Below are positions 22,616-43,297 of a DNA stretch of 64,000 bases, piece after piece. A program made the translations under genes and the position numbers. The notes beneath the pieces were generated by a model. That model made no database searches. It had not been told where the DNA came from and saw only the letters and a program-made list of their open reading frames with translations. The first letter of the stretch is position 1. Each line of letters begins with the position of its first letter. This stretch comes from Ignavibacteria bacterium (GTDB taxonomy: Bacteria; Bacteroidota; Ignavibacteria; Kapaibacteriales; UBA4661), in the NCBI GenBank assembly GCA_013298775.1, contig JAAFIV010000002.1, positions 1-64,000 on the forward strand, written 5' to 3'.

Positions 22616-22655
22616 ATTTTTGCGAAATAGATTTCTGCGAAGTGTGCAATACAAA

Positions 22656-22703
22656 ACTATGGTCATCCAATACTATGGTCGTCCAATACTATGGTCATCC
22701 AAT
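22656..22703. repeat. 16-bp tandem repeat x3 abutting the GH2 start
   Basis: ACTATGGTCATCCAAT occurs three times in tandem (the middle copy with one A-to-G change). The last unit ends inside the ATG chosen for the GH2 gene (22702). Sixteen is not a multiple of three, so copy-number changes shift any frame entering from upstream. Confidence 0.85.
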
Positions 22704-25050
22704 GCGAATTACTTCCCCCACATATCCTTCGTTGCGGCGTTGGTTTCGTAAATATTCCCTCAATGTGAGTTTCTGCGCCGTTCTATGCGGGCTGTCCTGT
22801 GCGTTGTATAGTTGCGCTTCCGTGCAGGATGTTACTCCTTCGGAAACATCATTTTTTACCCTGCCCGATTCCTCAAATAACACTTTTCCACTTACAGGAA
22901 CATGGTCGTTTCAAAGAGAAGGGATAGACTCTTTCCCGCATAATATCAAGGTGCCGGCGAATTGGTTCACCGAGAGCATTGGTGAGCAGCGCGTAGATTT
23001 TGCTGGAGCATGTGAATACACTCGTACCTTCATGTTGCCAGAAAAACTCACCACAAGCCAGCTTTTCCTTGTGTTTGAGGGTGTTGATTACGAAACGGAT
23101 GTTTGGTTGAATGATGTGTATCTCGGAAAGCATACGGGCTATTTCGCTCCTTTTGCTTTTTCCATTCAGAAGGAAATTCACACAAATAAACCAAATAAAC
23201 TTCGTGTCCGAGTGAACAGTCCGTCCGAAACGGACGAGGATTGGTCGCTCAAGAAACGGCTCATTAAGGGCATTTTCGGACACCATGACACTCGACCAGG
23301 CGGGGCGTGGTCGAAGCGCGGGCAGGAGCAAAATACTGGCGGTATTTGGGGAAAGGTGTATCTTCAAGCTGGCTCATTTGCTCACATTACGGGACTAAAG
23401 TGTACTACCATTCTTGTTCAGGATACAAATAGCTCTTCACATAATTCATTTAATAATTCATTTAATAATTCATTACTTAATTCTTCAAATCAACATGTAC
23501 ATTTGCGCATACAAGCGAGTATGTATGCTGCTCGTGGCGGTGTGGGCAATGTACAATTCTCATTACGTCCTGAGAATTTTTCTGATTCTACTGCGGATAT
23601 AGCAACAGCGATGAACATCAGTATTCATCAGGGTCTCAACGTTCTTGACACGATAATTTCGGTAAAAAATGCAAAACTGTGGTACCCTGCTGATGTTGGT
23701 TTTCCTCACTTGTACGTCCTGAAAACCAGTATTTCCCTTGATTCACCAACAAATGCAACGACTGACACCATTACTCGCTATGATAAACTTGGTTTCCGCA
23801 CGGTTCTTTGCGATACTGCAACTCAGCAGTGGTTTATCAACGGTAAACGTTTGTTTTTAAGAGGAACGAATTATATTGGTACGCAATGGCTCTCGACTAT
23901 GGGCAAAGCCGAGTATCTGAGCGATATTCAGTTGATGAAAGAAGCAAATATCAATGCAGTTCGCGTTCATGCGCACATTGCGCGAAAGGATTTTTACGAT
24001 GCCTGCGATGAAGCTGGAATCCTTGTTTGGCAAGATTTTCCCTTGCAATGGGGCTATTCAGACGACCCAGATTTTTTCAGAGCTGCGCATGCACAAACGA
24101 AGGAAATGATTCACTCCTTGTTTAATCATCCAAGTATTTTTGCGTGGTGTATGCACAATGAACCGCCATTTGATGCGGATTGGATGATTTACAAGTACAA
24201 AAACTATTCGCCCCTCCAAAATAAACATTTGAACGACGTATTGACGAAAGCCGCACGAAAACTAGATTCTACGCGATATGTGTATCCCTTTTCCGCAACA
24301 AAAGAACATCATTGGCAAGGCTGGTACGGAGGAAAATTGACCGACCACGCTGCACCGACTAAAACCCGCATCATATCTGAATTCGGCGCACAGGCACTGC
24401 CAGAACTTGCAACCTTAAAAAACATCGTTGGAGAGAAGGCATTATTTCCCACAACCGAGCAGGAATGGGTGTTGTGGGAATATCATAATTTCCAAAAAAT
24501 GGAAACCTTTCAGAATGCACACGTTCCAATGGGCGCAACACCAGAGGAGTTTATTGCAAATACGCAAGCCTACCAAACAGCTCTGACGCGGCTTGCGGCT
24601 GAGTCGTACAGAAAGCAAAAATACTCACCCGTTAGCTCAATCTTTCAATTCATGTTTGTAGAAAACTGGGCTTCCATCAATTGGGGCATTGTGGATTTTC
24701 AGCGCAAAAAAAAGCCAGCATATTTCGCCTTGAAGCAAGCATATACGCCAACAACAGCCTTTCATGAGTACGATTCCACAACACAAAGCGTCAAAATTTG
24801 GATTGTAAATGATGCTTGGAAATCATTCCCAAAAAGTACAATTTCATGCACACTTCAGGCAGTTGGAGCAATGGAGCCACCAATAACTACAAAACCGAAT
24901 GGACTACTTTTGCCGTTTCAAAAAACGTGGCAATGCTCCATTCCAGCAGATACTTCGTATGTAGTTGTTTCGTGGAAAGTACCACCAACGCTTGCAAGCA
25001 GGCTCATGAAGAACGAACTTCGTTTGCAAACAACTCTTTCGCTTGAATGA
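22702..25050 (+). CDS. GH2-family beta-glycosidase lipoprotein
   Basis: A 782-residue exported glycoside hydrolase of family 2 (beta-mannosidase/beta-galactosidase/glucuronidase superfamily). Start at MRITSPTYP (22702) leads into a lipoprotein signal ending LYSCAS, so it is probably anchored in the envelope. A jelly-roll domain (VDYETDVWLNDVYLGKHTGYFAPF), an immunoglobulin-like domain and the TIM barrel follow. The acid/base glutamate is in CMHNEPPFD (about residue 489) and the nucleophile in IISEFGAQ (about 560). An in-frame Asn/Ser-rich linker (HNSFNNSFNNSLLNSS) arises from 12-bp DNA repeats near 23440. Confidence 0.9.
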   Translation: MRITSPTYPSLRRWFRKYSLNVSFCAVLCGLSCALYSCASVQDVTPSETSFFTLPDSSNNTFPLTGTWSFQREGIDSFPHNIKVPANWFTESIGEQRVDFAGACEYTRTFMLPEKLTTSQLFLVFEGVDYETDVWLNDVYLGKHTGYFAPFAFSIQKEIHTNKPNKLRVRVNSPSETDEDWSLKKRLIKGIFGHHDTRPGGAWSKRGQEQNTGGIWGKVYLQAGSFAHITGLKCTTILVQDTNSSSHNSFNNSFNNSLLNSSNQHVHLRIQASMYAARGGVGNVQFSLRPENFSDSTADIATAMNISIHQGLNVLDTIISVKNAKLWYPADVGFPHLYVLKTSISLDSPTNATTDTITRYDKLGFRTVLCDTATQQWFINGKRLFLRGTNYIGTQWLSTMGKAEYLSDIQLMKEANINAVRVHAHIARKDFYDACDEAGILVWQDFPLQWGYSDDPDFFRAAHAQTKEMIHSLFNHPSIFAWCMHNEPPFDADWMIYKYKNYSPLQNKHLNDVLTKAARKLDSTRYVYPFSATKEHHWQGWYGGKLTDHAAPTKTRIISEFGAQALPELATLKNIVGEKALFPTTEQEWVLWEYHNFQKMETFQNAHVPMGATPEEFIANTQAYQTALTRLAAESYRKQKYSPVSSIFQFMFVENWASINWGIVDFQRKKKPAYFALKQAYTPTTAFHEYDSTTQSVKIWIVNDAWKSFPKSTISCTLQAVGAMEPPITTKPNGLLLPFQKTWQCSIPADTSYVVVSWKVPPTLASRLMKNELRLQTTLSLE

Positions 25051-25257: not shown

Positions 25258-28200
25258 ATGCCAAGCACTCCAACAACACAACGTTTACAAGAAATACGTA
25301 TTGCCTTTGTCGCAATGCGCAAGCGGTACATTGTGCTGCTTGGTAGCGTGTTCTTGGTTATTGTTGTTGGGCAATATGAAATTCAAAAAAAGCTGAATCA
25401 AATTGGCATAACCTATGAAGCTCTGAATGAATTGCAACAGCTCTACGAGCTTGGAAGCCTGATGAAACCGAAGGGACTGATGATTGCCGCTTCTACAACA
25501 CCAGAAGAACGCGCAAAAAGTATAAGCGATTTTTCCCAAAATGTGCAGCTATACTTAGATTTATTCGGAAAAATCCGCTACAACTCTGATTACCACGAGG
25601 TTTTTGGTATTAGCGATACCGTCAAGCAACGTATTTTTCGGCTCGACGGTGCAACCTCGCTCATACGGACATCGCTTCCTATCTCGTCTGATACCATTTC
25701 GCTTGATACTACGTTTATCAGAATTACCACCATTTTAAGTGTGCAAAGTAGAGCAGAGCAGGAACTCAGTGTGTTTGTGTACGGGTATAAATCCGAGCTT
25801 CAGAAAATGCGGGCATTTGTGCAATGGCTTTCTTTGGGCGGGATTGCAATTATTGTTCTCGCACTTGGTTGGGAATTAGCCTTTATTTTATTGCCGTCTC
25901 GAAATACAACGCAAACCCTTTTTAAGGAAGTCGAGGAAAGCCAGAAAAACCTTGAAACTGCGCTAAAAAAGGTCTCCGATACGCGCTCTCGGTATGAGTT
26001 ACTGTTTAATCAAGCGCATGATTGTGTGTATCAATTAGACGGTCGCGGAAGGTTCGTTTTTGCTAATACTGCTGCTCAAAAATTGTTGGGATATGACAGC
26101 GCAATGCTCGCAGAAACGTACTATTTGGACTACGTGCATCCAGATTATCGGCGTTCTGTTACGGTTGAATACCTTCGCACCGACCAAGAAGGGAAGCCTA
26201 GTTCCTCCCCAAAAGATACTCTGTCGTCGGTGAATTATTCAAAGTCCATGAGTTTTCCTATTGTGAATGCAAACGGCACAACTCGGTGGGTGGAGCAAAG
26301 TTTTACCAAACTGTACGACAACGAAATGTTTGTTGGCTATCTCGGAATTGCGCGTGATGTAACCGAGCGACAGGAAATTCAACAATACTTGGAAGAGTTA
26401 GTTGCGCTTCATTCTCTTGTGTTGGAAAACATCTCATCTGCTGTGATTTCATGCGACCTTCAAGGAGTAATTTCCGTTTTTAACAACGCCGCAGAATATA
26501 TGCTCGGATATAGTGCCGATGAGGTGATTGGCGAAAAAACAATCATCGAACTCTTTACGTTGGATGACCTGTACGCAAAGAAAAAAGCCCTACTTCAATC
26601 CTTTGGGAAAGAGATTTCAAGCGACTTAGAGACCTTTTTCCTTACAGCAGAGCATTTTGGAAATTATATCCAACGCTCAACCTTGCGCTCAAAACATGGC
26701 AGTTCGGCTTCTGCGGATATGAGAATTCGCTTGCTCAAAGATAGTGCTGGTGTTGTTACGGGCTTATTGCTCACGGCGCAGGATGTGAGCGATGTTCAGC
26801 AGTTGGAGCAAATTAAGCAAGATTTTATCTCAAGAGTAAGCCATGAAATGCGCACACCGCTTCATGGAATAATGGGCATGATAGAAATTTTGCAAACATC
26901 AGAATTGAACGAAGAACAACGCTCAATGGTGGATATTGCCCAAGCAAAATCGGATGTTTTGCTTACTCTTATCAATGATATTTTGGAGTATTCCAAGATA
27001 CAGAGCGGCGCGTTGGAAATTCAGAATGCTCATGCTGATATGAGTATTTTAGTGAGCAATATTTCTGAAGTGCTTCAGTATCGGTTGTTTGCAAAAGGAA
27101 TTGGCTTGGAAATTCAACTTGCCCCAAACACACCGCCAATGCTGTACTGCGACCCAGTACGCTTGTATCAAATTATCCTGAATCTTTGCGATAATTTAAT
27201 ACAATTCAGCGAAGGCGGAACCTTGCATATTGATATTGAGTACCTTGAAAAAAGTGGTGGGCAAAATGGACTTTCTCTCTCCTTGTATATCCTCGGAGGC
27301 TCAGTAAATCAGGATATTCAACGTAAAGTCTTTGCCCCGTTTGTGGATGAGAATTCCAACAAAGAAATGTTTCATCCTGCGGGATTGCAGATTACGCTCT
27401 TGCGTGGAATTGTGCAGCAAATGGGAGGCGTGCTGTGGTTGGAAAATGATTTGGAAAAAAAGAGCGTTTTTCATATATTCCTGACAATAGACAACGCTTC
27501 AGCAATGCTTGATGAAAACATTTCTTCTGCCTCGAATCATCAACATTCAAAAAAGGGGTTTACTCCTGAGGTTGTCTCGGAGACGGTTTCATCGTCAAAT
27601 AAGGGTTTATCAGCTATTCAGCATTCTACGCCTCAAGGCGTTTCCTCAGAACAATACTCGGAAACTACACTTCCGAGAAAAATTATTCGTATTTTAGTAG
27701 TGGACGATGACCAAGACAACCGAAGTCTTGCAGAATCGTTTGTAATGCAATCTGCTCATCCTTTATTTTCCTATCAACTTACTTTTGCAAAAAACGGTGA
27801 AGAAGCGCATCAGCTTTTTGGTGAGCAGCTCGCAACGGCATACCCATTTGACCTTGTGTTGATGGATATTCAAATGCCTGTTATGGATGGTTTTGAAGCA
27901 ACAAAGTCCATTCGTTTGCAAGAAAATGCGATAAAAAAATCCCGCGTTCCCATTATAGCGATTACCGCGAATGCAATGGAAAATTACCGCGAAAAATGTT
28001 TAGCCGTCGGCATGAATGATTACCTAGCAAAGCCCGTAAAGAAAAAGCAACTTAATGATATGATTGAAAAATGGCTCGAACACCGAAAGAATATTCTTCT
28101 TGTTGATGACAGTGAAGATTTTCGCTTGATTATGCAATTGCAACTGGAAAAAGAACAACGATATAATCTGTTTATTGCATCCAATGGTCAAGAAGCCATT

Positions 28201-28473
28201 GAGCTTTTTCAAGAACACGACATTGACGCTGTGATTATGGATATGGAAATGCCGATTGTCAATGGATATGAGGCGACCAAAATATTGCGTCAAATGCCCA
28301 AAGGGTTCACTATTCCTATTCTCGCTATGACAGGGCATAATGGAGAAAAGGAAATACTTCGTACTCTTGAGGTTGGATGTACAAAATGTTTTACAAAAGA
28401 AGGACTGGAAACAATTCGTCAAGTTGTTGCTGAATTGACCGACTATTTTTCCTCTCCAAAATTGAATGCCTAA
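25258..28473 (+). CDS. Hybrid histidine kinase with two receivers and an eroded ATPase domain
   Basis: A 1071-residue membrane sensor. TM1 about 18-38, TM2 about 190-212, two PAS domains (about 243-370 and 385-505), HisKA with intact SHEMRTPLHG (His about 528), HATPase-like region (about 620-735), then two receivers (ILVVDDDQD...VLMDIQMPVMDG from about 811; ILLVDDSEDFR...VIMDMEMPIVNG from about 944). The ATPase keeps an N-box-like LNLCDNLIQFS but the G1 box reads YILGGSVNQDI instead of DxGxG, and G2 reads AGLQITLL instead of GLGL. ATP binding is therefore doubtful. An Hpt protein follows at 28673. Confidence 0.9.
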   Translation: MPSTPTTQRLQEIRIAFVAMRKRYIVLLGSVFLVIVVGQYEIQKKLNQIGITYEALNELQQLYELGSLMKPKGLMIAASTTPEERAKSISDFSQNVQLYLDLFGKIRYNSDYHEVFGISDTVKQRIFRLDGATSLIRTSLPISSDTISLDTTFIRITTILSVQSRAEQELSVFVYGYKSELQKMRAFVQWLSLGGIAIIVLALGWELAFILLPSRNTTQTLFKEVEESQKNLETALKKVSDTRSRYELLFNQAHDCVYQLDGRGRFVFANTAAQKLLGYDSAMLAETYYLDYVHPDYRRSVTVEYLRTDQEGKPSSSPKDTLSSVNYSKSMSFPIVNANGTTRWVEQSFTKLYDNEMFVGYLGIARDVTERQEIQQYLEELVALHSLVLENISSAVISCDLQGVISVFNNAAEYMLGYSADEVIGEKTIIELFTLDDLYAKKKALLQSFGKEISSDLETFFLTAEHFGNYIQRSTLRSKHGSSASADMRIRLLKDSAGVVTGLLLTAQDVSDVQQLEQIKQDFISRVSHEMRTPLHGIMGMIEILQTSELNEEQRSMVDIAQAKSDVLLTLINDILEYSKIQSGALEIQNAHADMSILVSNISEVLQYRLFAKGIGLEIQLAPNTPPMLYCDPVRLYQIILNLCDNLIQFSEGGTLHIDIEYLEKSGGQNGLSLSLYILGGSVNQDIQRKVFAPFVDENSNKEMFHPAGLQITLLRGIVQQMGGVLWLENDLEKKSVFHIFLTIDNASAMLDENISSASNHQHSKKGFTPEVVSETVSSSNKGLSAIQHSTPQGVSSEQYSETTLPRKIIRILVVDDDQDNRSLAESFVMQSAHPLFSYQLTFAKNGEEAHQLFGEQLATAYPFDLVLMDIQMPVMDGFEATKSIRLQENAIKKSRVPIIAITANAMENYREKCLAVGMNDYLAKPVKKKQLNDMIEKWLEHRKNILLVDDSEDFRLIMQLQLEKEQRYNLFIASNGQEAIELFQEHDIDAVIMDMEMPIVNGYEATKILRQMPKGFTIPILAMTGHNGEKEILRTLEVGCTKCFTKEGLETIRQVVAELTDYFSSPKLNA

Positions 28474-28672: not shown

Positions 28673-28990
28673 ATGAATACTTCGTCTGTCCAACGTACTG
28701 CTCGGGTTCCTAGAGATTTGGAGCCACTTTTAGAACGATATTTTTCCAATAGAAGGAAAGATATTCGTACCATTCAAGAATGTCTTCAGGAAAACAATTT
28801 TGAGCAAATACAAGGGATTGGGCATACAATGAAGGGATCTGGTTCGTCGTATGGCTTTCTTCCTATTACAGAGCTGGGTAAAGCAATCGAGCAAGCTGCA
28901 AAAAATGCAGACGCAACCAGTATTCAAGGGCATATGTACGAATTAGAGCAGTATATCAATACGGTACACATTGAGTTTGTTGATGAATAA
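28673..28990 (+). CDS. Hpt phosphotransfer protein
   Basis: A 105-residue histidine phosphotransfer domain protein. IQGIGHTMKGSGSSYGF contains the phosphorylated histidine and the following KGSG helix. It would shuttle phosphate between receivers, most likely those of the hybrid kinase encoded 199 bp upstream, or the receiver-phosphatase at 37936. It is the last regulatory gene before the polysaccharide cluster. Confidence 0.88.
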   Translation: MNTSSVQRTARVPRDLEPLLERYFSNRRKDIRTIQECLQENNFEQIQGIGHTMKGSGSSYGFLPITELGKAIEQAAKNADATSIQGHMYELEQYINTVHIEFVDE

Positions 28991-29007
28991 AGAAACAAAA
29001 TTTAGGA

Positions 29008-29127
29008 GGACTTTCGCAAACGGTTCGTTTCATGGGGCAGACAAGAGTGTCCGTCCTACTGAAGCCAGATGAAACCGAAGCCTGATAGTAGCGCAGACAC
29101 TCCTGTCTGCGCCGTTTGCGAAAATCC
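29008..29127. repeat. REPIN-like doublet with outer arms, copy 6
   Basis: Outer arms GGACTTTCGCAAACG and CGTTTGCGAAAATCC (one mismatch) enclose inward-facing REP units GGGCAGACAAGAGTGTCC and GTAGCGCAGACACTCCTGTC. It separates the Hpt gene from the glycosyltransferase gene. Confidence 0.82.
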
Positions 29128-29170
29128 CATTCAGATAAAACATGACCAGCATCGAATACGAAAAACGTAA

Positions 29171-29215
29171 GAAGAATTGAAAGAAGAATTGAAAGAAGAA
29201 TTGAAAGAAGAATTG
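29171..29215. repeat. 12-bp tandem repeat overlapping the glycosyltransferase ribosome-binding site
   Basis: GAAGAATTGAAA is repeated three times plus GAAGAATTG, ending 5 bp before the ATG at 29221. Each unit contains an AAGAAG purine run that could serve as a weak ribosome-binding site. Confidence 0.88.
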
Positions 29216-29220
29216 ATTGT

Positions 29221-31017
29221 ATGATGGAACATTATTTTACACCTTTCGAGCATCGCCAACCGCCTCCACCAATTCCGCATTCTGTTGGAAGAGAGCTGCT
29301 GTGGCAATTTCTCGCAACAGTTGCTCTTGCTCTCGGCGCGTGGTATATTTCTTGGCGATGGATGCACAGTATCAATTGGGACGCGCTGTGGTTCTCCTTG
29401 CCATTGCTGTTTGCGGAAACTATGTCGTACATTGGGCTGTGTATTTTTGCACTCAATTTATGGAAAGTCGAAGATACGCCAAGACAAGAGGCTCCGCGCT
29501 TTATCAATGACTGCGTGCGCGAACAGATGCCAGAACATCGTATTTCGGTGGATGTTTTCTTTCCAACCTTTAACGAAGACGTAGATTTGGTGCGGCTTGG
29601 CATTCGCGATGCAAAAAACATGCGCTATCCACACCCAATTGACGTTGCGATTCATGTGCTGGACGATGGTAAACGCGAGGAAATGCGCCGCGTTGCTGAA
29701 GAAGAAGGTGTCAATTACATCACGCGTGATAACAATGTTGGCTTCAAAGCGGGGAATTTACGCAATGCAATGGAGCAAACGCACGGCGATTTCATCGTTA
29801 TCTGCGATGCCGATACCCGCCCATTTCCTACGCTTCTGGAGCATACGCTTGGTTACTTCCGCGACCCCGATGTGGCGTGGGTTCAAACCCCGCAATGGTT
29901 TTTCGATTTAACCGAAGGCGTTTCCTTGAAGCATTGGTTGAAAAAGTATCTTTGGTTGCCAGGCTATGCTATTGGAGCGAGTATTGAAGCGGTTGTTGGG
30001 GAAATTCGGGTTGGGCATGATGTTTTTGTCAATGACCCGCAAATGTTCTTTGATGTTATCCAACGCAGGAGAAATTGGGCAAATGCTTCGTTTTGTTGTG
30101 GGGCAGGTTCCGTACATCGGCGCGAAGCCGTGATGCAGGCAGCAATGCAGACGTATTCCGATGCAATTGATGGGCATATTCGTAAAATGACGAGCGATGT
30201 TGAAAACGAGGAATTGCGTGTGAATTTATCTGAGGTCATGCGCAAAGAACTTGCATTGGAGACAGAAGTTGTGCCGTATAAATTCCATGTTTCGGAAGAT
30301 ATTTACACCTCAATTGTCCTCCATTCTTACAAAGAGCGCACGTGGAAATCGGTGTATCATCCGTTTGTAGAATCCAAAATGCTTTCGCCGCAAGACCTGT
30401 TGTCGTGGACGATTCAACGCTTCAAATATGCCGGCGGTTCGCTTGATATTTTCTTGCACGATAATCCGCTTTTCCGCAAAAGTAATCTTTCGTGGGCGCA
30501 ACGTGCGATGTATTTCGCAACGTTTTTTTCCTATTTGGCTGGTGTGTGGAATATCATTTTTTTGCTTTCCCCGATAATCTATTTATTTAGTGGCGTTTCA
30601 CCCGTGAATGCAGATTCTATCGCCTTTGCAGCTCACTTTCTTCCATTCATCTTGGCAACAGAGTGTGCTTTTTTGGTGGGAACTTGGGGAGTGGCTGGCT
30701 GGCAGGGCATGGCAAGTTATCTTTCCTTCTTCCCCGTGAATCTACGCGCTATCTGGACGGTTTTGCGTGGTGAAAAAATCAAATTTCCGGTAACACCGAA
30801 AAGTCGCCAAGAAGGAAATTTTTTGCATCTCGTCATCCCGCAAGTAGCGATTATTGTTCTCACGCTCTCTGGGCTTCTGTACTCAGGAACAATGCTCGCT
30901 TTGGGAAAAAACAGTAATTACTCAGGTTTTATTACAAACTGTTTTTGGGGCGGTGTCAATATCTTTGCAATGAGCGGAATTGTGATGGCTGCGCTCTGGA
31001 AGCCGCAAGAAAGCTGA
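29221..31017 (+). CDS. Cellulose-synthase-like family 2 glycosyltransferase
   Basis: A 598-residue processive inner-membrane synthase related to BcsA. Membrane spans flank the cytosolic GT-A domain. DDGKREE (about residue 148) binds UDP, CDADTRP (about 195) is the DxD metal site, HVSED (about 358) carries the catalytic-base position of the TED motif, and IQRFKYAGG (about 398) replaces the canonical QxxRW. C-terminal membrane helices follow. There is no PilZ domain, so direct c-di-GMP control as in BcsA is not expected. It heads a same-strand cluster with three DUF3131 genes, a ConA-fold protein and an outer-membrane barrel. The sugar polymer is unknown. Confidence 0.9.
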   Translation: MMEHYFTPFEHRQPPPPIPHSVGRELLWQFLATVALALGAWYISWRWMHSINWDALWFSLPLLFAETMSYIGLCIFALNLWKVEDTPRQEAPRFINDCVREQMPEHRISVDVFFPTFNEDVDLVRLGIRDAKNMRYPHPIDVAIHVLDDGKREEMRRVAEEEGVNYITRDNNVGFKAGNLRNAMEQTHGDFIVICDADTRPFPTLLEHTLGYFRDPDVAWVQTPQWFFDLTEGVSLKHWLKKYLWLPGYAIGASIEAVVGEIRVGHDVFVNDPQMFFDVIQRRRNWANASFCCGAGSVHRREAVMQAAMQTYSDAIDGHIRKMTSDVENEELRVNLSEVMRKELALETEVVPYKFHVSEDIYTSIVLHSYKERTWKSVYHPFVESKMLSPQDLLSWTIQRFKYAGGSLDIFLHDNPLFRKSNLSWAQRAMYFATFFSYLAGVWNIIFLLSPIIYLFSGVSPVNADSIAFAAHFLPFILATECAFLVGTWGVAGWQGMASYLSFFPVNLRAIWTVLRGEKIKFPVTPKSRQEGNFLHLVIPQVAIIVLTLSGLLYSGTMLALGKNSNYSGFITNCFWGGVNIFAMSGIVMAALWKPQES

Positions 31018-31056
31018 TTGTTTTTGTTAAGGTTAGGGACAGAACTATATTAAATT

Positions 31057-31129
31057 GGGCAAACAAGAGTGTCTGCCCTACTGAAGCCAGTATGTATCGG
31101 TAACGCAGACACTCTTATCTCTGCGCTAC
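31057..31129. repeat. REPIN-like doublet, copy 7
   Basis: GGCAAACAAGAGTGTCTGCC then CTACTG on the left; GGTAACGCAGACACTCTTAT and CTGCG on the right. It lies between the synthase and the first DUF3131 gene. Confidence 0.72.
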
Positions 31130-31231
31130 GAGATGCCAAGGTATTATGTCCACAATCCTAGCAACTGAAATGTAATACTATCATATGATTATGAGAATTT
31201 GCCAATTTCTTTATCGTTTCTTTCATTGTTT

Positions 31232-32581
31232 ATGAACTTTACACAAGGTTTGAAAGCTGCTCGAAGCCGCATTGTTATTATTCTTGGGCTGCTTACGTCG
31301 GTGGGAATAATTGTTGCCATTGATAATTCCGATTTGACTATCGCTAAAAACCAACGTCTTTTGCGCGGTGTAAATACGCCCGGCAATATTTTTTTGGTGG
31401 ACACATCAAAAGGAATTCCAACGCCTCCTTCGCAGGAATTATCTGCCCAAGAACAAGAGTTTGCGCGGATTGCATGGAAATATTTTGAGCGGAATTATCA
31501 AGAACAAACGGGCTTGGTGAACTCGGTGGACCAATATCCAGCCTCAACGATGTGGGACACGGGTTCGTATCTCATGGGTGTTCTGTCGGCGTATAAATTG
31601 GGCATTATCTCAGAAGAAGTTTTCAAAAAGCGCATCAGTTCTTGCTTGCAGGCGTTGGCTGTATTGCCTTTGTATGATAACGAATTGCCAAATAAATCAT
31701 ACAATACCACGACAAAGCAAATGGTCAATTACGACAATTCCCCCTCACCACGCGGTATTGGCTGGTCTGCAATTGATGTTGGCAGATTGTTTGTTCCCAT
31801 GAATATTCTTACGTGGCAATATCCCGAATTTGCTGGGCAGGTGCGAGCTGTTATCAAGCGTTTGCGCTTTTCGCATGTGGTACAAGGTGGCATCATGTTT
31901 GGCGCAGTTGTGGGGGATAGCAATACAACAGAATACCCACAAGAAGGACGTATTGGATATGAGGAATATGCTGCAAAGTCTTATTCTATCATGGGTACAG
32001 ACGTTTTCGGTGCTTTGAAATACGATGATTTTTTGCAATACGAAAATATTTATGGAATACAAATTCCAACAGACAGCCGAACACCTGACCGTTACAAGGC
32101 TTTCAACTACGTGGTCAGTGAGCCATATATTTTGGACGGTTTGGAATATGGCTTTGATAATTATTCCAGAGAATTTGCCTATCGCGTGTATCGCGCACAG
32201 GAAGAGCGTTTCAATAGAACTGGCATTCCAACAGCAGTAAGTGAGGATAACATTGATACCGTTCCGTACTTTGTGTATAATACCGTGTTTACTGCTGGTA
32301 AGCAATGGAGCTGTATTACTGACAAGGGCGAAGATGTATCGCAGTTTCGCTCATTGAGTACCAAAGCGGTTTTTGGCTGGTATGTTTTGTACCAAACCGA
32401 ATACACGAAGAAACTTCTTGAAAAAACCGCCTCCCTCTACGACCCTGATAAAGGCTGGTTTTCTGGAGTGTATGAAAAAACAGGGAAGCCCAACAAAGCT
32501 ATCACCTGTAATACAAACGCAATTATCTTAGAAGCATTGTGCTACAAAAAATTTGGTCCACATTTGAAACTGTTGAATTAA
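31232..32581 (+). CDS. DUF3131 protein, copy 1
   Basis: A 449-residue exported or membrane-anchored protein: the N-terminal helix IVIILGLLTSVGIIVAI is a signal anchor. The DUF3131 domain starts at AWKYFERNYQEQTGLVN and carries TMWDTGSYL, ELPNKSYN, GWSAIDVGRL, GYEEYAAKSY and TVPYFVYNTVF. Such domains are expected to form an alpha/alpha toroid like glucoamylases; glycosidase or lyase activity is inferred, not shown. Start at 31232 (MNFTQ) is preferred over 31199. It sits behind the polysaccharide synthase, so a role in trimming or modifying the polymer is likely. Confidence 0.85.
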   Translation: MNFTQGLKAARSRIVIILGLLTSVGIIVAIDNSDLTIAKNQRLLRGVNTPGNIFLVDTSKGIPTPPSQELSAQEQEFARIAWKYFERNYQEQTGLVNSVDQYPASTMWDTGSYLMGVLSAYKLGIISEEVFKKRISSCLQALAVLPLYDNELPNKSYNTTTKQMVNYDNSPSPRGIGWSAIDVGRLFVPMNILTWQYPEFAGQVRAVIKRLRFSHVVQGGIMFGAVVGDSNTTEYPQEGRIGYEEYAAKSYSIMGTDVFGALKYDDFLQYENIYGIQIPTDSRTPDRYKAFNYVVSEPYILDGLEYGFDNYSREFAYRVYRAQEERFNRTGIPTAVSEDNIDTVPYFVYNTVFTAGKQWSCITDKGEDVSQFRSLSTKAVFGWYVLYQTEYTKKLLEKTASLYDPDKGWFSGVYEKTGKPNKAITCNTNAIILEALCYKKFGPHLKLLN

Positions 32582-32659
32582 ACCTTTGCTTTGCTTGAAC
32601 TTCCTAAAGAACGACGTGGTTTATCCGCTTGAGAATCATTGCAATAATCTTTCAAAATT

Positions 32660-34072
32660 ATGTTTACAATCCGCATTCTATCAGGTTTCTTGCTTGTTTG
32701 TAGTTTGTATTTTTCTACATCTCCTTTGCATGCACAGCTTCCGCAGCGAGATTTTGGGCGGCATCCGGGCAGAAATGGTGCTTTGACCGAAGAAGAAATC
32801 ACGATGGCTCGCCGTGCATGGAAATACTTTGAGCGCAACTATCAAGATTCGACGGGACTTGTAAACGCAGTAGACAAATATCCTTCCACAACGATGTGGG
32901 ATATTGCTGGATATATGGCTGCACTCGTGGCGGTGCGGGAAATGGGTATCATTACGCCAGAACTTTTCGATGCTCGCATTACCAAAATGTTTGCAACGTT
33001 TCAAAAAGTTTCGTTGTTTCGTGATGAATTGCCCAATAAATGTTACCACACAATCACCGCACAAAAGGTGAATTATGGTAACGAGCCAATGGAAATCGGC
33101 TTTTCGGCGATTGACTTAGCACGCTTTTTGCTGTGGTCGAAGGTCATCAAAGAACGCTTTCCCCAGCATAGCGACCGCATTGATGAGTTCATTTTGCGCT
33201 GGAGATTCAAAAATGTGATTGATAGTGTTGGCATGCTCTACGGCGCAACGGTGGATGACAAAGACAAAAAGAAAACGAAGTATTTGCAGGAAGGGCGTTT
33301 GGGCTATGAAGAATATTCCGCAAAATGTTTTCAGTTGTGGGGCTTTGAAACGGGAATGGCTGCAAAACCTGAACCCTACGACACCCGCACTATTTACGGC
33401 GTTGAGATTCCCTACGACACCCGCGACCCACGCGAATTAGGTGCGCATAACTACGTCGTTTCAGAAAGTTATGTGCTGGATGGCATCGAATTAAACTGGG
33501 ATTCTGGCTTTGACCGTACCTCGCGCGATGATGACTACACCGATAAAATAATTGCGGAATTTGCCCAGCGCATTTACAAGGTTCAAGAAGAGCGATTTCG
33601 TAAAACAGGCATTATGACCGCACGAACAGAGCATCAGCTCGACGGCGATCCCTATTTTGTGTATGATGCTATTTTTACCGATGGTTATCCTTGGAATACC
33701 ATCACCGAACCCGGCAAACATGTTCCACAATATGCGGCGGTTGCTCTGAAAGGCGCATTGGGACTGTGGTCTCTTTGGCAAACAAAATATACCGATTCAT
33801 TGTTTAATTACATCAAAAATGCTTACGACCCAGAAAAAGGCTACTACGAAGGCATTTTTGAGCGTAAAGGGAATGACCTCATAAAAACCTTCACGATGAA
33901 CAATAACGGAATTATGCTTGAAACCTTGCTATACAAGATGCAAGGAAAATTGGTTCGATTTTCTGGACGAGATAGTAAATGGGACAAAACCTTACGTAAT
34001 CGCGAAGAACCCAAGAATAGTTATATTTACGAGCGACAGCGCAAACCATTGGAAAGCGCATTAAAGCAATGA
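32660..34072 (+). CDS. DUF3131 protein, copy 2
   Basis: A 470-residue periplasmic paralogue of the neighbouring genes. A signal peptide (ILSGFLLVCSLYFSTSPLHAQ) is followed by AWKYFERNYQDSTGLVN, TMWDIAGYM, ELPNKCYH, GFSAIDLARFL, GYEEYSAKCF and GDPYFVYDAIF, so it keeps the same conserved positions as copy 1. Compared with copy 1 it has a longer C-terminus (YIYERQRKPLESALKQ). It starts 78 bp after copy 1 and ends 18 bp before copy 3, in operon-like spacing. Confidence 0.86.
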   Translation: MFTIRILSGFLLVCSLYFSTSPLHAQLPQRDFGRHPGRNGALTEEEITMARRAWKYFERNYQDSTGLVNAVDKYPSTTMWDIAGYMAALVAVREMGIITPELFDARITKMFATFQKVSLFRDELPNKCYHTITAQKVNYGNEPMEIGFSAIDLARFLLWSKVIKERFPQHSDRIDEFILRWRFKNVIDSVGMLYGATVDDKDKKKTKYLQEGRLGYEEYSAKCFQLWGFETGMAAKPEPYDTRTIYGVEIPYDTRDPRELGAHNYVVSESYVLDGIELNWDSGFDRTSRDDDYTDKIIAEFAQRIYKVQEERFRKTGIMTARTEHQLDGDPYFVYDAIFTDGYPWNTITEPGKHVPQYAAVALKGALGLWSLWQTKYTDSLFNYIKNAYDPEKGYYEGIFERKGNDLIKTFTMNNNGIMLETLLYKMQGKLVRFSGRDSKWDKTLRNREEPKNSYIYERQRKPLESALKQ

Positions 34073-34090
34073 GTGTGAATCGGTATCTTT

Positions 34091-35500
34091 ATGAAACAAC
34101 TTTTTCAGAACAATCATCATCATAATTTGCTCCGGCGAGCTTATTCCCTATGTGCCGCTCTCTGTCTTGTGTTTGTGAGTTCATGCGGTGTTATTGTTCG
34201 CTCTATTGATGAAGGTACTGAAAAAGCGGTGAATGTTTTCAAAGAAGGTCGGCGCGGTCGTTTGAGTGAAGAAGAGCAGCTCTGGGCGAAAATTGCTTGG
34301 AAATATTTCGAGAATAATTACAATCCGCAAACTGGTTTGGTGAATGCGAAAGATGCGTCGCAGATTGTAACAATGGAAAGCATTGGCGATTACATTATTG
34401 CTTTGATGGCAGCGCGTGAACTGGAAGTAATTAGCAAACATGAATTTGACAGCCGATTAAGTTTGGTGTTTGGTTTCTTGAATACCATGAAACTTGCCTT
34501 CGGCGAATTGCCCAATGTCAATTATCACGCCGTTTCTTTACAGCCCTTAAATTATGCCGCAAAGCCCGCCGTTATTGGCTGGCAGATACATCATATCGGA
34601 AGGCTTATGACAGTTTTACGCCTTCTTCGGAATAAGTATGCGTATTACGGCGAATACGTTGATAGAGTTATTTTGCGTTGGTCTTTTTGCAATTGCATAG
34701 ATAAAGAAGGGAATTTGTATAGTGCAGTGAATGTAAACGACAAAGCGGCAAAATTTCTCGACGGCAAGCATGGGCAAAAAGAATATACTGCTCGTGGCTT
34801 CAAAGCGTGGGGATTCAGTATGGAAGCGGCTTCTAGCATTGACCCGATAGAAACAATTCGTATAAACGATATTGAAATCTATTTTGATGGCAATGACGAG
34901 CGGGCAAGCAACAGCAATAATGCGGTAACGAGCATGCCCTATTTTCTCACGTTATTAGAATTTGGTTGGGAAAATATCTCGTATCTCGCGCTGGATAAAC
35001 GGTATTATGAGCAGATTATGAATGTGTATGAAGTTCAAAAACGACGACATGAGCGCGAAGACATATTCACTGCCCGTGCAAAGCATGAAGTTACCACAGA
35101 GCCATTTACTGTGTACGATGCGTTGTTTTCCAATGGCTATAAATGGACAACAATTTCCAGTTCAGGTGTCTATTTTCCACAGCATGCTGCCGTTTCCACA
35201 AAAGCTGCTTTTGCTATGTGGGCAGCCTTCAAAACGCCTTACACCGACGCACTCATGCAAATTTCCAACTCCCTTTTTGACCCAGCACGTGGCTGGTACG
35301 AAGGGCGTTTAGAAAAAACAGGTGATATTGTCCGCACACTTACTTGTCAAACAAACGCTATTGTCTTAGAATCGCTCTTATTCAAAAAATCTGGTCGCTT
35401 ATACGAACAAGCTCATGAAGAAGACGACCTTTATAGAATCTATCTCCGCGATGAATTTAAACTCCTCAAAAAATGTCTTCCACTTAAAAAATCTTATTAA
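34091..35500 (+). CDS. DUF3131 protein, copy 3 (diverged lipoprotein)
   Basis: A 469-residue paralogue with a lipoprotein-type signal (CLVFVSSCGVIV). The AWKYFENNYNPQTGLVN start is kept, but the TMWD motif of copies 1 and 2 is TMES here, GW/FSAID becomes GWQIHH, and GYEEY becomes GQKEY. These are the positions most likely to line the active site, so copy 3 may bind rather than cleave glycan, or have another specificity. Its 3' end overlaps the next gene by about 50 bp. Confidence 0.84.
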   Translation: MKQLFQNNHHHNLLRRAYSLCAALCLVFVSSCGVIVRSIDEGTEKAVNVFKEGRRGRLSEEEQLWAKIAWKYFENNYNPQTGLVNAKDASQIVTMESIGDYIIALMAARELEVISKHEFDSRLSLVFGFLNTMKLAFGELPNVNYHAVSLQPLNYAAKPAVIGWQIHHIGRLMTVLRLLRNKYAYYGEYVDRVILRWSFCNCIDKEGNLYSAVNVNDKAAKFLDGKHGQKEYTARGFKAWGFSMEAASSIDPIETIRINDIEIYFDGNDERASNSNNAVTSMPYFLTLLEFGWENISYLALDKRYYEQIMNVYEVQKRRHEREDIFTARAKHEVTTEPFTVYDALFSNGYKWTTISSSGVYFPQHAAVSTKAAFAMWAAFKTPYTDALMQISNSLFDPARGWYEGRLEKTGDIVRTLTCQTNAIVLESLLFKKSGRLYEQAHEEDDLYRIYLRDEFKLLKKCLPLKKSY

Positions 35501-36530
35501 CATTAGTGGATTCCTTTTCTTCTTGCTGTATGCTGGTTGTCTCTTTGCTCAATATCAAGTAGTTTCTCCTAGTAGTTTGGAATCCAAACAATTAAAAAAA
35601 ATCCCGCTCTCCAAAGAACCTATTCTTCCACCACTACCGCCCGCAATCCAAAAAGCTGTGAATGAACGGCTTCAAAAGGAACAACTTCAGAAGGAACAGC
35701 TTCAAAAAGAGAACCTTCAGAAAGAAAAAGAACACGAGCAACAACAAGAAACGCAACCGCATAATTTTCATAATCTTCGCCACGAAGAAGAAAGCCTCGA
35801 AGAAAAAGGAAATGCGAGCCGTAGTTATCCAGCTCCAGATACACTGTTTTGGGGCGGAATACGATGGATAGCGCGGAATTCCTCAGAACGAGGTGAACCT
35901 TTCAACACCATTTTTTCTGGAAAAAAAACGGAAGTGTTTGTGGATGACCAAAATAAACTGCACCTTGTTATCAATAAGCGAGATGGCTATTGGTATAGTA
36001 TTGATTTAGCAGCAGATACGAGCTTAGGGTACGGCGTATATGGGTTATTTGCCGAAACAAAATTCGATGAATTTGCTCCGAATGTACAGTTTGAATTTTC
36101 CATTACGCCCGATGCGGCAATGGACACATACACCGCACCAATACTTGCTATTCAATGTACAAAACTGCATGAACAGACAATTTCTCCACTTCGCTACCTT
36201 GTGGCAAATGTGGAGCAGAATCTGGTCGGTGAGCGCAAAGAAAAAGTCTTTCGGTCTGATGAACCATTTCGGATGCAAGGGCTTTTTTCCACGCATGCAA
36301 TGACGTGGAAAAGCCGTAGTTGTGAATTTGCAAGCTACCACGACCATGGTCTGCCGAGCAAGTATTTAGCTGCATTATGGGATTTTTCTGGTTCTCCAGC
36401 AACAGGTCTGAAAGTCCCTGAGCCAACACCGACAAATACTCTTCGCCTCCGCTTATGGTGTACTGGCTCGCCCATTGACAACAAGCCGATTGAAGTTGTG
36501 ATTAAAAAAATTGTGTATCGGTCTGAATAA
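35451..36530 (+). CDS. Secreted ConA-fold (GH16-like) protein
   Basis: A 359-residue protein if started at MNLNSSKN (35451); ATG 35415 is also in frame. After a signal sequence (LINISGFLFFLLYAGCLFAQ) comes a linker with four LQKEQ-type repeats (15-bp DNA units at 35670-35729) that would form a coiled coil. The rest (DTLFWGGIRWIARNSSERGE, LHLVINKRDGYWYSIDL, GYGVYGLFAETKF) looks like a concanavalin/laminarinase-type beta sandwich. The GH16 catalytic ExDxE motif is not apparent, so glycan binding is more likely than hydrolysis. It overlaps DUF3131 copy 3 and is 15 bp from the barrel gene. Confidence 0.7.
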   Translation: MNLNSSKNVFHLKNLINISGFLFFLLYAGCLFAQYQVVSPSSLESKQLKKIPLSKEPILPPLPPAIQKAVNERLQKEQLQKEQLQKENLQKEKEHEQQQETQPHNFHNLRHEEESLEEKGNASRSYPAPDTLFWGGIRWIARNSSERGEPFNTIFSGKKTEVFVDDQNKLHLVINKRDGYWYSIDLAADTSLGYGVYGLFAETKFDEFAPNVQFEFSITPDAAMDTYTAPILAIQCTKLHEQTISPLRYLVANVEQNLVGERKEKVFRSDEPFRMQGLFSTHAMTWKSRSCEFASYHDHGLPSKYLAALWDFSGSPATGLKVPEPTPTNTLRLRLWCTGSPIDNKPIEVVIKKIVYRSE

Positions 36531-36545
36531 ATTACGAAGGGTAGT

Positions 36546-37652
36546 ATGCGATTTGTGTCTCCATATCAATATCTCAATTTTATTGGATTTTTACTATCGT
36601 TTGGAATCCTTCCTTTTTCTTTGCTATGCCAACAAAAATCTGTACAACCAGCTACCACAGAAAATGGTGCAACGACTAAAACGATAAACAATTCTGCGAA
36701 TTCCTCGACAATACGCTCCATCAATAAATACGGTGGTCTTCAGGCACAGCTTGATGGTACGGGTCCAAAAGCAATAAAATCTATTCCAATAGAGCCAGAT
36801 ATTCGAGAAGATGAAACGTGGGAAAATATTTGGTCGAATATGAAAACCTCGTTTGAATTTCCCTTTGAAGATTTTCTCAAGAACAACCAAGTAGATGCTT
36901 TAAGCGGAAGCATTGCAATTACTTATCCCTTCAGCGATGCGGCTTCCAGAGCTGATAACGGTAGCAATTCGCAGGGAGTAGCCTTATCTTCTGCGGTTCT
37001 GGGGCTTTCTTTATCGTATAAGCCGATTTCATATTGGTTTGTGAGTGTATCGGTCATGCGTTATTTTTTTCCTGACCAGAAAAGGAGTTGGAATCCAGAT
37101 TTTACGTATAGTTTTGGCTATAACGATTGGCATCCTTATACATTTAGTTTCGTCTATTCAAATTTTCAAGGGAATCGTCTTTTTCCAAATATTGCGAGCG
37201 GGGAAGTTGTGACGCACTTTTGGGAAGGAAATTTTGCACTTGGGTGGAAATTTCCTTCTGCAAAGCTCATTGAGCATGTATGCGTTGTTCATCCAAGCGG
37301 CGGAATTGGTCATAGTTTGCATCTCAATATTCACCCGCAATATAGAATTCAAGGTGCAAAGCAGGACGAGTTGGGGTTTTGGAAAACTGCGCTCAGTTTT
37401 TCAACAAAATACACGATTTATGAGCAGATTTATGCGAATTTTACGGTATTTTGGTATCCCATTCCGGGACAGCAGCAGCCTTGGGACCCTGATTTTACCT
37501 ACGGTATTGGCTTTTTTGATTGGCATCCGTACACACTTTCGTTACAATACAATAACCATGTCGGCGGGCGTTTCCCTTGGAATCCGAGCAAAGCTACGCT
37601 GCGTGGTATTTTGGATGGAACATTATCGCTTTCGTGGAGCTTTGTGTTTTAA
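36546..37652 (+). CDS. Predicted outer-membrane barrel of the polysaccharide cluster
   Basis: A 368-residue protein of no family I can name. A signal sequence (FIGFLLSFGILPFSLLC) and low-complexity linker precede amphipathic strands. An internal duplication is clear: WNPDFTYSFGYNDWHPYTFS, then YSNFQGNR, near residues 180-215, and WDPDFTYGIGFFDWHPYTLS, then YNNHVGGR, near 315-350. It ends with a strand finishing in phenylalanine (TLSLSWSFVF), as outer-membrane barrels do. Position as the last gene of the synthase cluster suggests the export pore for the polymer, in the place of BcsC or AlgE. Confidence 0.7.
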   Translation: MRFVSPYQYLNFIGFLLSFGILPFSLLCQQKSVQPATTENGATTKTINNSANSSTIRSINKYGGLQAQLDGTGPKAIKSIPIEPDIREDETWENIWSNMKTSFEFPFEDFLKNNQVDALSGSIAITYPFSDAASRADNGSNSQGVALSSAVLGLSLSYKPISYWFVSVSVMRYFFPDQKRSWNPDFTYSFGYNDWHPYTFSFVYSNFQGNRLFPNIASGEVVTHFWEGNFALGWKFPSAKLIEHVCVVHPSGGIGHSLHLNIHPQYRIQGAKQDELGFWKTALSFSTKYTIYEQIYANFTVFWYPIPGQQQPWDPDFTYGIGFFDWHPYTLSLQYNNHVGGRFPWNPSKATLRGILDGTLSLSWSFVF

Positions 37653-37657
37653 TCCTT

Positions 37658-37802
37658 TGTACACGACAAAACCTCTGAAAAGCGCATTAAATCAGTCTTC
37701 AGTGGCTTGAGACTTCTTGTCTGTGTTCGTTGCTTGAACCCCACACCAACACTCACAAACAAGAAGTCTCACGCCACTATGAAAAAAGTTTTGTCGTGTA
37801 CA
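37658..37802. repeat. REPIN-like doublet with perfect outer arms, copy 8
   Basis: TGTACACGACAAAAC (37658-37672) and GTTTTGTCGTGTACA (37788-37802) are perfect 15-bp outer arms. The inner arms GTGGCTTGAGACTTCTTGTC and ACAAGAAGTCTCACGCCAC (37702-37777) are the REP-like part. It separates the polysaccharide cluster from the receiver-phosphatase gene. Confidence 0.83.
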
Positions 37803-37935
37803 GAGGTTTTAATCTCGAATTCGAGAGTGAAATATCCTGCAAAAAGTATATTTTGAACTCCTTGAATTCAAGCTCCCGTATCTTGGTTCTTTTTGTCCAT
37901 TTGTCTTTCCTTAGGCTTCTATTTTAGAGTATCGT

Positions 37936-39231
37936 ATGAAAATTTTGGTTGTAGATGATAATGAAGATATGCTTCTTCTTTTGATGCAATTTTTGAAAAA
38001 TTGGGGGCATGACGTTCTTCTTGCAAGCAATGGAGCGGAGGCGTGGCATATCCTTGAAGAAAACGACCAGATTCAATTCGTCATCAGCGATTGGAATATG
38101 CCGCTAATGAATGGCATTGAATTTTGCAGAAAAATACGAGAAGACAATTATTTCGACCGGTATATCTATGTGATTTTGCTCACTGCTAGAAGAGACCAAC
38201 TCGACCTTGTGGAAGGCATGGAGGCTGGCGCAGATGATTTTATGGGAAAACCTTTCAATAAAGAAGAATTGCGAGTTCGCATTCGCGCAGGGGAGCGGGT
38301 TATTCAATTAGAAAAAATCTTAGAAGAGCGTAATAAAAAACTACGAGAAGCACAAGATTCCTTGCAAAAAGACTTGCAAGCAGCAGCAAGTTTGCAAAAA
38401 AGTTTATTGCCAGATAAGAAGGAGTCCCAACCATTTTTATCGCATGGATTTCGGTATGAGTGGCTTTACGTTCCAGCAGCATTTATTGGGGGAGATAGTA
38501 TTAACTTTCTCCGTTTAGATAGTAATCATGCTGGTTTTTATATTGTTGATGTTGCCGGACACGGTATTCCATCGGCAATGACTTCGGTAATGTTGCATCA
38601 AACCTTGTCTGCAGCGAATGGTCAGGCGGGTTTGTTGAAGGATGATATTTCATTTACACCACATGTGTATATCCGCCCCCCAGCAGAAGCACTCTACGAA
38701 CTCAATAATACTTCGCAGCATGAAAACGATGCAATGAATTATTTTACAATGATTTATGGCGTAATGGATGTTCGCACGTCCCGAATCACTCTTGCTCAGG
38801 CGGGGCATCCACCAGCAATTTTGCTCCGTGCCGATGGAAGCGCAGAATTAGTAGAAGGCGCAGGAGGCGTACCAATTGGCATGCTACCCGACATGCTGTA
38901 CGATGAAACTGAACTCACCCTTTCTCTGCATGACCGATTGTTTTTTTACACCGATGGCATTACCGAATGTGAAAACCGTTTTGGGGAACAATTTTCGCAA
39001 GAACGGCTGATTGAAACACTTATCAAATATGCCAATTTGCCCCTCGATGAGATTGTCGCAGAACTCGCGGCAGAAATCAGACTTTGGCGAGGTAGTACCA
39101 CCTACGACGATGATATTACCCTCTTCGCGATTGAAAAATATGCTCAAAGTAAGGAAAATTCAATCCCTGAAGATGTTTCTGCTCCCTTTGATGCGGATTC
39201 GGGGCAAGGTGAAATTGTCATTGCGTTGTAA
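37936..39231 (+). CDS. Receiver-PP2C (RsbU/SpoIIE-type) phosphatase
   Basis: A 431-residue cytoplasmic response regulator. The receiver (ILVVDDNEDMLLLL, FVISDWNMPLMNG with the acceptor aspartate near residue 55, and FMGKPF near 105) is joined by a coiled coil to a SpoIIE-type Mn/Mg phosphatase domain (GGDSINFLRLD, YIVDVAGHGIPSA, LFFYTDGITE, TYDDDITLFA). It would dephosphorylate a STAS protein, such as the one at 21614, when its receiver is phosphorylated. Its place after the polysaccharide genes suggests it links that locus to partner switching. Confidence 0.92.
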   Translation: MKILVVDDNEDMLLLLMQFLKNWGHDVLLASNGAEAWHILEENDQIQFVISDWNMPLMNGIEFCRKIREDNYFDRYIYVILLTARRDQLDLVEGMEAGADDFMGKPFNKEELRVRIRAGERVIQLEKILEERNKKLREAQDSLQKDLQAAASLQKSLLPDKKESQPFLSHGFRYEWLYVPAAFIGGDSINFLRLDSNHAGFYIVDVAGHGIPSAMTSVMLHQTLSAANGQAGLLKDDISFTPHVYIRPPAEALYELNNTSQHENDAMNYFTMIYGVMDVRTSRITLAQAGHPPAILLRADGSAELVEGAGGVPIGMLPDMLYDETELTLSLHDRLFFYTDGITECENRFGEQFSQERLIETLIKYANLPLDEIVAELAAEIRLWRGSTTYDDDITLFAIEKYAQSKENSIPEDVSAPFDADSGQGEIVIAL

Positions 39232-43201: not shown

Positions 43202-43297
43202 TTGGTGTACAGTTTGGTTGGTGTACAGTTTGGTTGGTGTACAGTTTGGTTGGTGTACAGTTTAGTTGGTGTACAGTTTGGTTGGTGTACAGTTTGG
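43202..43297. repeat. 16-bp tandem repeat x6 upstream of the giant secreted protein
   Basis: TTGGTGTACAGTTTGG is repeated six times over exactly 96 bp with a single change (TTTAG at 43261-43265). It ends 43 bp before the proposed ATG at 43341. Unit length equals that of the repeat at 22656 but the sequence differs. Confidence 0.9.

Follow-up and report, generated by a model that had tools for sequence, protein, structure and literature searches.

What does a BcsA-like synthase make, and how is its product exported, in a bacterium whose genome encodes no BcsB, BcsC, or PilZ domain? This question is raised by a gene cluster in a 64,000-nucleotide stretch of Ignavibacteria bacterium DNA (contig JAAFIV010000002.1, positions 1 to 64,000; here called the window). 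An earlier note on this DNA had proposed that positions 28673 to 39231 encode a distinct exopolysaccharide system. All eight open reading frames that it listed were found on the plus strand where it had placed them, and Pfam agreed with its naming of an Hpt protein, a GT2 family synthase, three DUF3131 proteins, and a receiver-PP2C phosphatase (Response_reg plus SpoIIE, the latter being the "PP2C" part). However, the range was too narrow, because four upstream genes on the same strand (encoding a STAS protein, an RsbW-like protein, a GH2 protein, and a hybrid kinase) also belong. We treat the cluster as one unit of 12 co-oriented plus-strand genes at 21.6 to 39.2 kb (~17.6 kb), in the order STAS, RsbW, GH2, hybrid histidine kinase, Hpt, GT2, DUF3131 paralogues 1 to 3, the putative ConA-fold protein, barrel, and response regulator (RR)-SpoIIE. 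We consider it quite probable that this is a synthase-dependent exopolysaccharide secretion system that forms, alongside BcsA (cellulose) and BgsA/CrdS (mixed-linkage glucan/curdlan), a third branch of the BcsA superfamily. The cluster is a variant within this mode of secretion and not a category of its own.

The synthase has the features of a processive GT2 enzyme of the BcsA superfamily: DDG, DxD, ED, and FxVTxK motifs and multiple membrane helices. In the window protein the motifs read LDDG, CDADT, SED, FCCG, QTPQ, FKAG, and, in the gating loop, FPVTPK. Its PDB sequence matches are cellulose synthases, and PGAP labels some of its relatives "cellulose synthase catalytic subunit." As the earlier note had said, it is BcsA-like without PilZ. 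It scored 225 bits against the CelA/BcsA equivalog TIGR03030 (E value of 1.6e-66), the cut-off of which is 699, and no PilZ domain was found in the protein by Pfam or in the genome by a family search. Genome-wide searches for BcsB and for BcsC (BCSC_C) were also negative, with positive E. coli controls, and the genome carries a single GGDEF domain. The Q(Q/R)xRW site, where in BcsA the tryptophan forms a stack with the acceptor sugar (PMC6821405, PMC10237404), reads QRFKY. QRFKY or QRYKY was present in all synthases of the cluster type in which the pattern was readable (70 of 76), whereas the BcsA, BgsA, and CrdS sequences compared here keep the RW. A maximum-likelihood tree placed the 27 DUF3131-linked synthases together in one clade (support of 100/100), apart from BcsA and BgsA/CrdS, and a Nostoc GT2 that neighbors DUF3131 genes was the sister of this clade. 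The tree has long branches, and its CrdS row was identified by a crdASC-like gene context. Because the BcsA-type motifs are kept but PilZ, BcsB, and BcsC are absent and QRFKY replaces QxxRW, we regard this enzyme, judged by sequence, as one that would work like a BcsA-type synthase yet falls outside the bacterial cellulose synthases.

The host genome (5.19 Mb, 99% complete) has Candidatus Kapaibacterium metagenome-assembled genomes (MAGs) as its closest named relatives. Of 61 relatives, the same 7 and no others, all from one family, had a full synthase, three DUF3131 proteins, and strong matches to the putative ConA-fold protein. The full 12-gene order was intact at locus L152 (genome G301) and locus L047 (genome G298), and at L045/L154 (genome G300) the order from the hybrid kinase to RR-SpoIIE was kept as far as the contig extends. 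In the sister genus (locus L048/L155, genome G303) the core was kept, with STAS-RsbW on the other side, and neither GH2 nor Hpt was found beside it. Two unrelated enzyme genes are inserted there; these long inserts encode PIG-L and peptidase M20 proteins and do not belong to the cluster. The proposal of a distinct system was exposed at two points, a gene order that varied among relatives or BcsB/BcsC homologues elsewhere that pair with this synthase. It held at both, because the order is conserved and BcsB, BcsC, and PilZ are absent.

We also scanned GTDB representative genomes with the second DUF3131 protein, which yielded more than 523 loci. The counts below are from the best 80, which are named and span four phyla. 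Because DUF3131 was the criterion for picking these loci, its own counts are to some extent built in, unlike those of the other genes, and genes were detected with profiles built from the cluster itself. The loci are from Kapaibacteria, Desulfoluna and other desulfobacteria, an acidobacterial MAG, Burkholderiales, Vibrio, Photobacterium, Shewanella, Ferrimonas, and Enterobacterales. The synthase was present in 79/80, at least two DUF3131 genes in 80/80, at least three in 76/80 (with two to four core copies per locus), and the barrel in 68/80. RR-SpoIIE, STAS, and RsbW-like genes were each found in 73/80 and the hybrid kinase in 39/80. Accessory genes were more scattered (GH2, 44/80; nucleotidyltransferase, 40/80; OpgC, 29/80; globin, 12/80). 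Some copies are plasmid borne (Pantoea, Salmonella, Paracoccus, Vibrio, Chimaeribacter, and others). The window synthase is 57 to 61% identical to proteobacterial copies and ~26% identical to BcsA in annotated plasmid records. Each of the three window DUF3131 proteins paired with its own Vibrio counterpart (508, 548, and 359 bits). Therefore, the threefold set already existed before the cluster spread. The Enterobacter copy had no close DNA match in E. coli genomes. Synthase, at least two DUF3131 genes, and a barrel homologue thus recur together in related and distant genomes, as the earlier note had suggested checking, and the same gene set is in hundreds of genomes from several phyla, including hospital-associated genera. 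The cluster is not confined to the lineage, and what is probably a Klebsiella version has been mentioned without analysis (PMC12974863).

The three DUF3131 proteins had been cast as alpha/alpha-toroid glycan enzymes that replace BcsZ, a GH8 enzyme. They scored 492, 414, and 332 bits against DUF3131 (PF11329), the curated cut-off being 20.3. The family profile matched the GH189 cyclization domain among PDB sequences (8wy1, 6e-5). The family profile was needed, because a single window protein gave only chance matches (hemagglutinin HA2, E > 0.1). We modeled paralogue 2 with a predicted local distance difference test (pLDDT) score of 79.6 and a predicted template modeling (pTM) score of 0.83. Its fold matches 1 to 20 were all members of the SGL group (GH144, GH162, GH189, newer glucanases, and whole cyclic glucan synthase [Cgs]), with E values of 3.7e-9 to 5.4e-5, and BcsZ was only the 27th. 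The SGL group (GH144/162/189/192-194) has been described (PMC12102758, PMC10834661). When profiles were compared, Cgs and glucanase-like proteins of the phylum matched with E values of 6.7e-7 and 4e-6, chiefly over the N-terminal half. DUF3131 is therefore predicted by modeling to adopt an (alpha/alpha)6-barrel fold like that of the beta-1,2-glucanase/glucanotransferase (SGL) group, not like that of GH8. The toroid of the original proposal stands, but its nearest relatives are beta-1,2-glucan enzymes rather than BcsZ. In a profile alignment to the GH189 catalytic pair, the N-terminal part aligned well but the active-site part did not, because Cgs has a large insertion. A local alignment paired HHH-G of Cgs with NNN-G of DUF3131, which is suggestive only. 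The N termini (an anchor, a signal-like segment, and a lipobox-like segment in paralogues 1, 2, and 3, respectively) are consistent with periplasmic action.

Among 296 genomes sampled from the phylum, the only genus in which full-length DUF3131 turned up was that of the window. Weak DUF3131 matches across the phylum were mostly long (~2,900 aa) or short (~450 aa) frames resembling cyclic glucan synthases or glucanase-like proteins, and we rejected them as true DUF3131 proteins.

The protein encoded at position 36546 had no Pfam family or database match, but it was modeled as a 12-stranded barrel, as the outer-membrane barrel of the earlier note required (pLDDT of 74.8). Its fold matches, which had low TM-scores, were FapF, porins, and further barrels of the outer membrane. 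Homologues are encoded in Vibrio, Pantoea, and Salmonella copies of the cluster, those of Pantoea and Salmonella being annotated as hypothetical. As the pore of the system, the barrel fared well as a conserved part but less well as a dedicated one. Second barrel paralogues lie elsewhere in three cluster-bearing genomes, and, because the family has copies away from the synthase, a dedicated pore is something that we can only infer. One such paralogue (L158/L160, 5117 to 6205; contig C221 of G303) is directly upstream of a DUF3492 plus GT4 glycosyltransferase gene, which we take to be PelF-like. After that gene come a gene for a 565-aa protein and a very long open frame. This might be another polysaccharide locus that uses the same barrel family, and a general role of the family in polysaccharide export would fit this one locus. 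Synthase-less paralogues are at 22271 to 23122 of contig C38 in G299, near a MutS2-type gene, and at 3911 to 4732 of contig C407 in G297; neither of these same-genus genomes has DUF3131 or a full-length match to the synthase.

The protein encoded at 35451 is secreted, judged from its sequence, and its strong matches were confined to copies of the cluster from Kapaibacteriaceae. It had no Pfam or PDB sequence match, so the ConA fold assigned to it is unproven; the gene is lineage specific. Profile comparison with a GH16 family gave an E value of 0.004 and a probability of 8%, and there was no significant match to GH16, to a 403-aa Vibrio protein in the same position, or to the barrel.

Control by phosphotransfer rather than by cyclic di-GMP (c-di-GMP) and PilZ, also part of the original proposal, gained support. 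A SpoIIE phosphatase, a STAS protein with a phosphorylatable serine (in a canonical IDSSGLG site), and an HATPase_c_2 kinase are encoded together, which is a partner-switching set of the RsbU/V/W type, and these genes are conserved along with the hybrid kinase. The Pantoea cluster has Hpt fused to the C terminus of its hybrid kinase, whereas Hpt is separate in the window. The fusion supports a chain from the kinase through Hpt to RR-SpoIIE, STAS, and RsbW. Thus, the sequences look like control by partner switching fed by a phosphorelay. As in RsbU-RsbV-RsbW and Vibrio fischeri SypE-SypA, an RR-SpoIIE phosphatase, a STAS protein, and an RsbW-like kinase are encoded with a polysaccharide locus. 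However, here they are three separate proteins, and there are a hybrid kinase and Hpt as well. An H-NOX gene in one plasmid copy, together with the globin genes, suggests a gas or redox input in some hosts.

We propose the following mechanism. The inner-membrane GT2, by homology and from its catalytic motifs, would polymerize a nucleotide sugar into a probable beta-glycan and thread the chain through its own membrane channel. The three periplasmic DUF3131 proteins, with their predicted SGL-group folds, may cut or rejoin the emerging chain, and the predicted 12-stranded barrel could then take it across the outer membrane. Trimming, acylation, or supply of the polymer might fall to GH2 and, in hosts other than this one, to OpgC, GH16, and a sugar nucleotidyltransferase. 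The receiver of the SpoIIE phosphatase would take its input from the hybrid kinase and Hpt. This phosphatase would in turn dephosphorylate the STAS protein, which would bind or release the RsbW-like kinase, so that synthesis is switched without PilZ.

Several points weigh against this interpretation. Confidence in the barrel model is no more than fair (pTM of 0.69), and the barrel was undetected in 12 of the 80 loci, several of which are incomplete. Two genomes of the same genus have barrel paralogues without a synthase, although one of these is only 86% complete. TM-scores for the DUF3131 fold are modest (~0.5 to 0.6). E211, D253, and E277 are kept in nearly all DUF3131 rows, but there is no confident mapping to the catalytic residues of the SGL group. 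The target of the partner switch may be either the synthase or a sigma factor. Finally, the clues to the polymer conflict, and the accessory enzymes vary by host and point to different polymers.

The product is probably a beta-glycan, and its most likely form, at about even odds, is a beta-glucan. That the cluster is instead a divergent bacterial cellulose (bcs) operon, with DUF3131 proteins in place of BcsZ, is very unlikely. The synthase is in the BcsA superfamily by its TIGR03030 E value, PDB matches, FxVTxK motif, and PGAP names. Like the Bcs system (BcsA-BcsB-BcsZ-BcsC), the cluster pairs a GT2 having DDG, DxD, ED, and FxVTxK with a predicted periplasmic alpha/alpha-toroid enzyme and a predicted outer-membrane barrel. 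However, it has no PilZ, BcsB, GH8, or TPR-barrel BcsC, and it has three DUF3131 proteins and partner-switch genes. The TIGR03030 score is well short of the cut-off, the acceptor site is altered wherever it was read, the clade is separate with full support, and BcsZ is low among the fold matches. In a mixed-linkage or beta-1,3-glucan, as made with BgsA/CrdS and trimmed by GH16, we have little confidence. GH16 genes are present in some Vibrio and Paracoccus loci, and the BgsBA and CrdASC synthases are BcsA-superfamily enzymes that likewise do without PilZ (PMC6821405), but they form a separate clade, the examined CrdS and BgsA sequences keep QxxRW, and their HlyD-type partner is not among the window cluster genes. 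We rejected CrdA and CrdC as relatives of DUF3131, the putative ConA-fold protein, or the barrel (E > 0.01).

Modeled on the cyclic glucan synthase and osmoregulated periplasmic glucan (OPG) systems, a third reading has the GT2 make a chain that DUF3131 proteins process as beta-1,2-glucanases or transglycosylases, giving a beta-1,2-linked (or cyclized) glucan that OpgC succinylates in other hosts. The DUF3131 fold is closest to beta-1,2-glucan enzymes, with a weak but significant profile match to Cgs and the GH189 cyclization domain, and OpgC is encoded in many proteobacterial copies. Still, we find this doubtful. The synthase is far nearer to BcsA than to OpgH (E values of 1.6e-66 and 6e-4), no OpgG was found among the genes scanned, and the window has no OpgC. 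In contrast to Cgs, DUF3131 proteins stand on their own next to a GT2, either secreted or anchored, and their NNN-G aligns only locally with HHH-G. The common fold does not fix the linkage, given that SGL-group identities are mostly <20% (PMC12102758), and some Vibrio loci encode a BglS/ExoK-type GH16, which acts on beta-1,3-1,4-glucan. A polymer built from a different nucleotide sugar, with mannose or some other sugar in it, is unlikely. An NTP-transferase with a hexapeptide domain, encoded in 40/80 loci, has mannose-1-phosphate guanylyltransferase among its best matches and could supply GDP-mannose, and the Pantoea GH2 has a Mannosidase_ig domain. However, that enzyme fits other sugar-1-phosphate models about equally, none above cut-off, and was not found in the window, and the window GH2 is nearest to a beta-glucuronidase model, below cut-off.

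Returning to a third BcsA-superfamily branch, we more tentatively suggest, with somewhat less than even confidence, that it is a class common in cultured Proteobacteria and present in clinically relevant genera, and that its changed acceptor site (QRFKY) and DUF3131 processing give its polymer a linkage or decoration that neither BcsA nor BgsA/CrdS products are described as having. Three distinct DUF3131 transglycosylases of the beta-1,2-glucan enzyme group, a new barrel family, and partner-switch control would also mark it. We found no functional study in open-licence papers other than preprints, only passing mentions, with DUF3131 appearing in three papers. In Klebsiella pneumoniae, accessory "block 3b" is an ecocline-associated gene block reported without functional or structural analysis (PMC12974863). 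We infer from gene composition that it is the same cluster. Four Shewanella genes are in a salt-shock network module (PMC8371737), and for Brucella there is a single-gene expression entry (PMC6382750). If our interpretation is right, a machine for matrix polysaccharide, now annotated as "cellulose synthase" plus "DUF3131," is present in hundreds of sequenced species. DUF3131 would gain a function, an outer-membrane exporter family would be added, and the ecology-linked Klebsiella block (PMC12974863) would be explained. The cluster would also offer a natural experiment on what altering the QxxRW acceptor site does to the product of a BcsA-type synthase.

Features of the 12-gene cluster (the STAS gene start codon was picked by comparison with relatives; HMM, hidden Markov model; ORF, open reading frame)
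Feature	Coordinates	Strand	Evidence
STAS-domain protein (anti-sigma-antagonist/RsbV-like)	21614..21952 (approx.)	+	cluster-relative HMM 129 bits; Pfam STAS 1.1e-19
RsbW-like HATPase_c_2 serine kinase/anti-sigma factor	22190..22612 (approx.)	+	cluster HMM 63 bits; Pfam HATPase_c_2 1.4e-21
GH2 family glycosidase	22642..25050	+	Pfam GH2 domains; both GH2 acidic motifs (HNEPP, SEFG)
Membrane hybrid histidine kinase, PAS-PAS-HisKA-HATPase-REC-REC	25258..28473	+	Pfam
Stand-alone Hpt phosphotransfer protein	28673..28990	+	Pfam Hpt 4.5e-9
GT2 BcsA-like processive synthase without PilZ	29221..31017	+	Pfam GT2 family 1e-15; motifs
DUF3131 paralogue 1, single N-terminal hydrophobic anchor	31199..32581	+	Pfam 9.8e-148
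DUF3131 paralogue 2 (best conserved), N-terminal signal-like segment, predicted alpha/alpha toroid	32660..34072	+	Pfam 9.7e-124; model
DUF3131 paralogue 3, lipobox-like N terminus (VSSC)	34091..35500	+	Pfam 4.7e-99
Secreted protein, labeled "ConA-fold" in the earlier note	35451..36530 (ORF can start at 35415)	+	
Predicted outer-membrane beta-barrel, unnamed family, signal-like N terminus, C-terminal ...SLSWSFVF	36546..37652	+	model
Receiver-SpoIIE (PP2C-type) phosphatase, RsbU-like	37936..39231	+	Pfam SpoIIE 2.7e-45, Response_reg 1.2e-26

Some further loci and enzymes are of note. The Pseudomonas "Orphan" BcsA-like cyclic-glucan synthases (PMC10237404) were rejected as the same system because they are GH17-GT2 fusions with QRFRW. 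A Shewanella abyssi contig (NZ_JAKIKR010000010.1; L095 and L096) has two whole clusters in opposite orientations with identical profile scores gene by gene, which is either a recent inverted duplication or an assembly artifact. In eight Shewanella loci (L061, L066, L068, L071, L084, L088, L095, and L123), a fourth DUF3131 gene adjoins the barrel gene, away from the main three. Other types of DUF3131 locus are also present. On a Nostoc plasmid (L040, 5374 to 19819), single- and double-length DUF3131 genes are beside a GT2 with QRLRW. On a Sulfitobacter plasmid (L043, 5154 to 11137), an annotated 1149-aa glycosyltransferase is followed by an 845-aa DUF3131 protein, and the remaining cluster genes are not nearby. 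In genome G066, from the class of the window, a 385-aa distant DUF3131-like protein (L033, 8272 to 9429; 1.5e-13) follows a 706-aa protein amid histidine-kinase-like genes, and this might be a reduced relative of the cluster. Downstream in the window itself, positions 43266 to 48626 encode a secreted-looking protein of 1786 aa, the C terminus of which, by eye, resembles a type IX secretion sorting signal.

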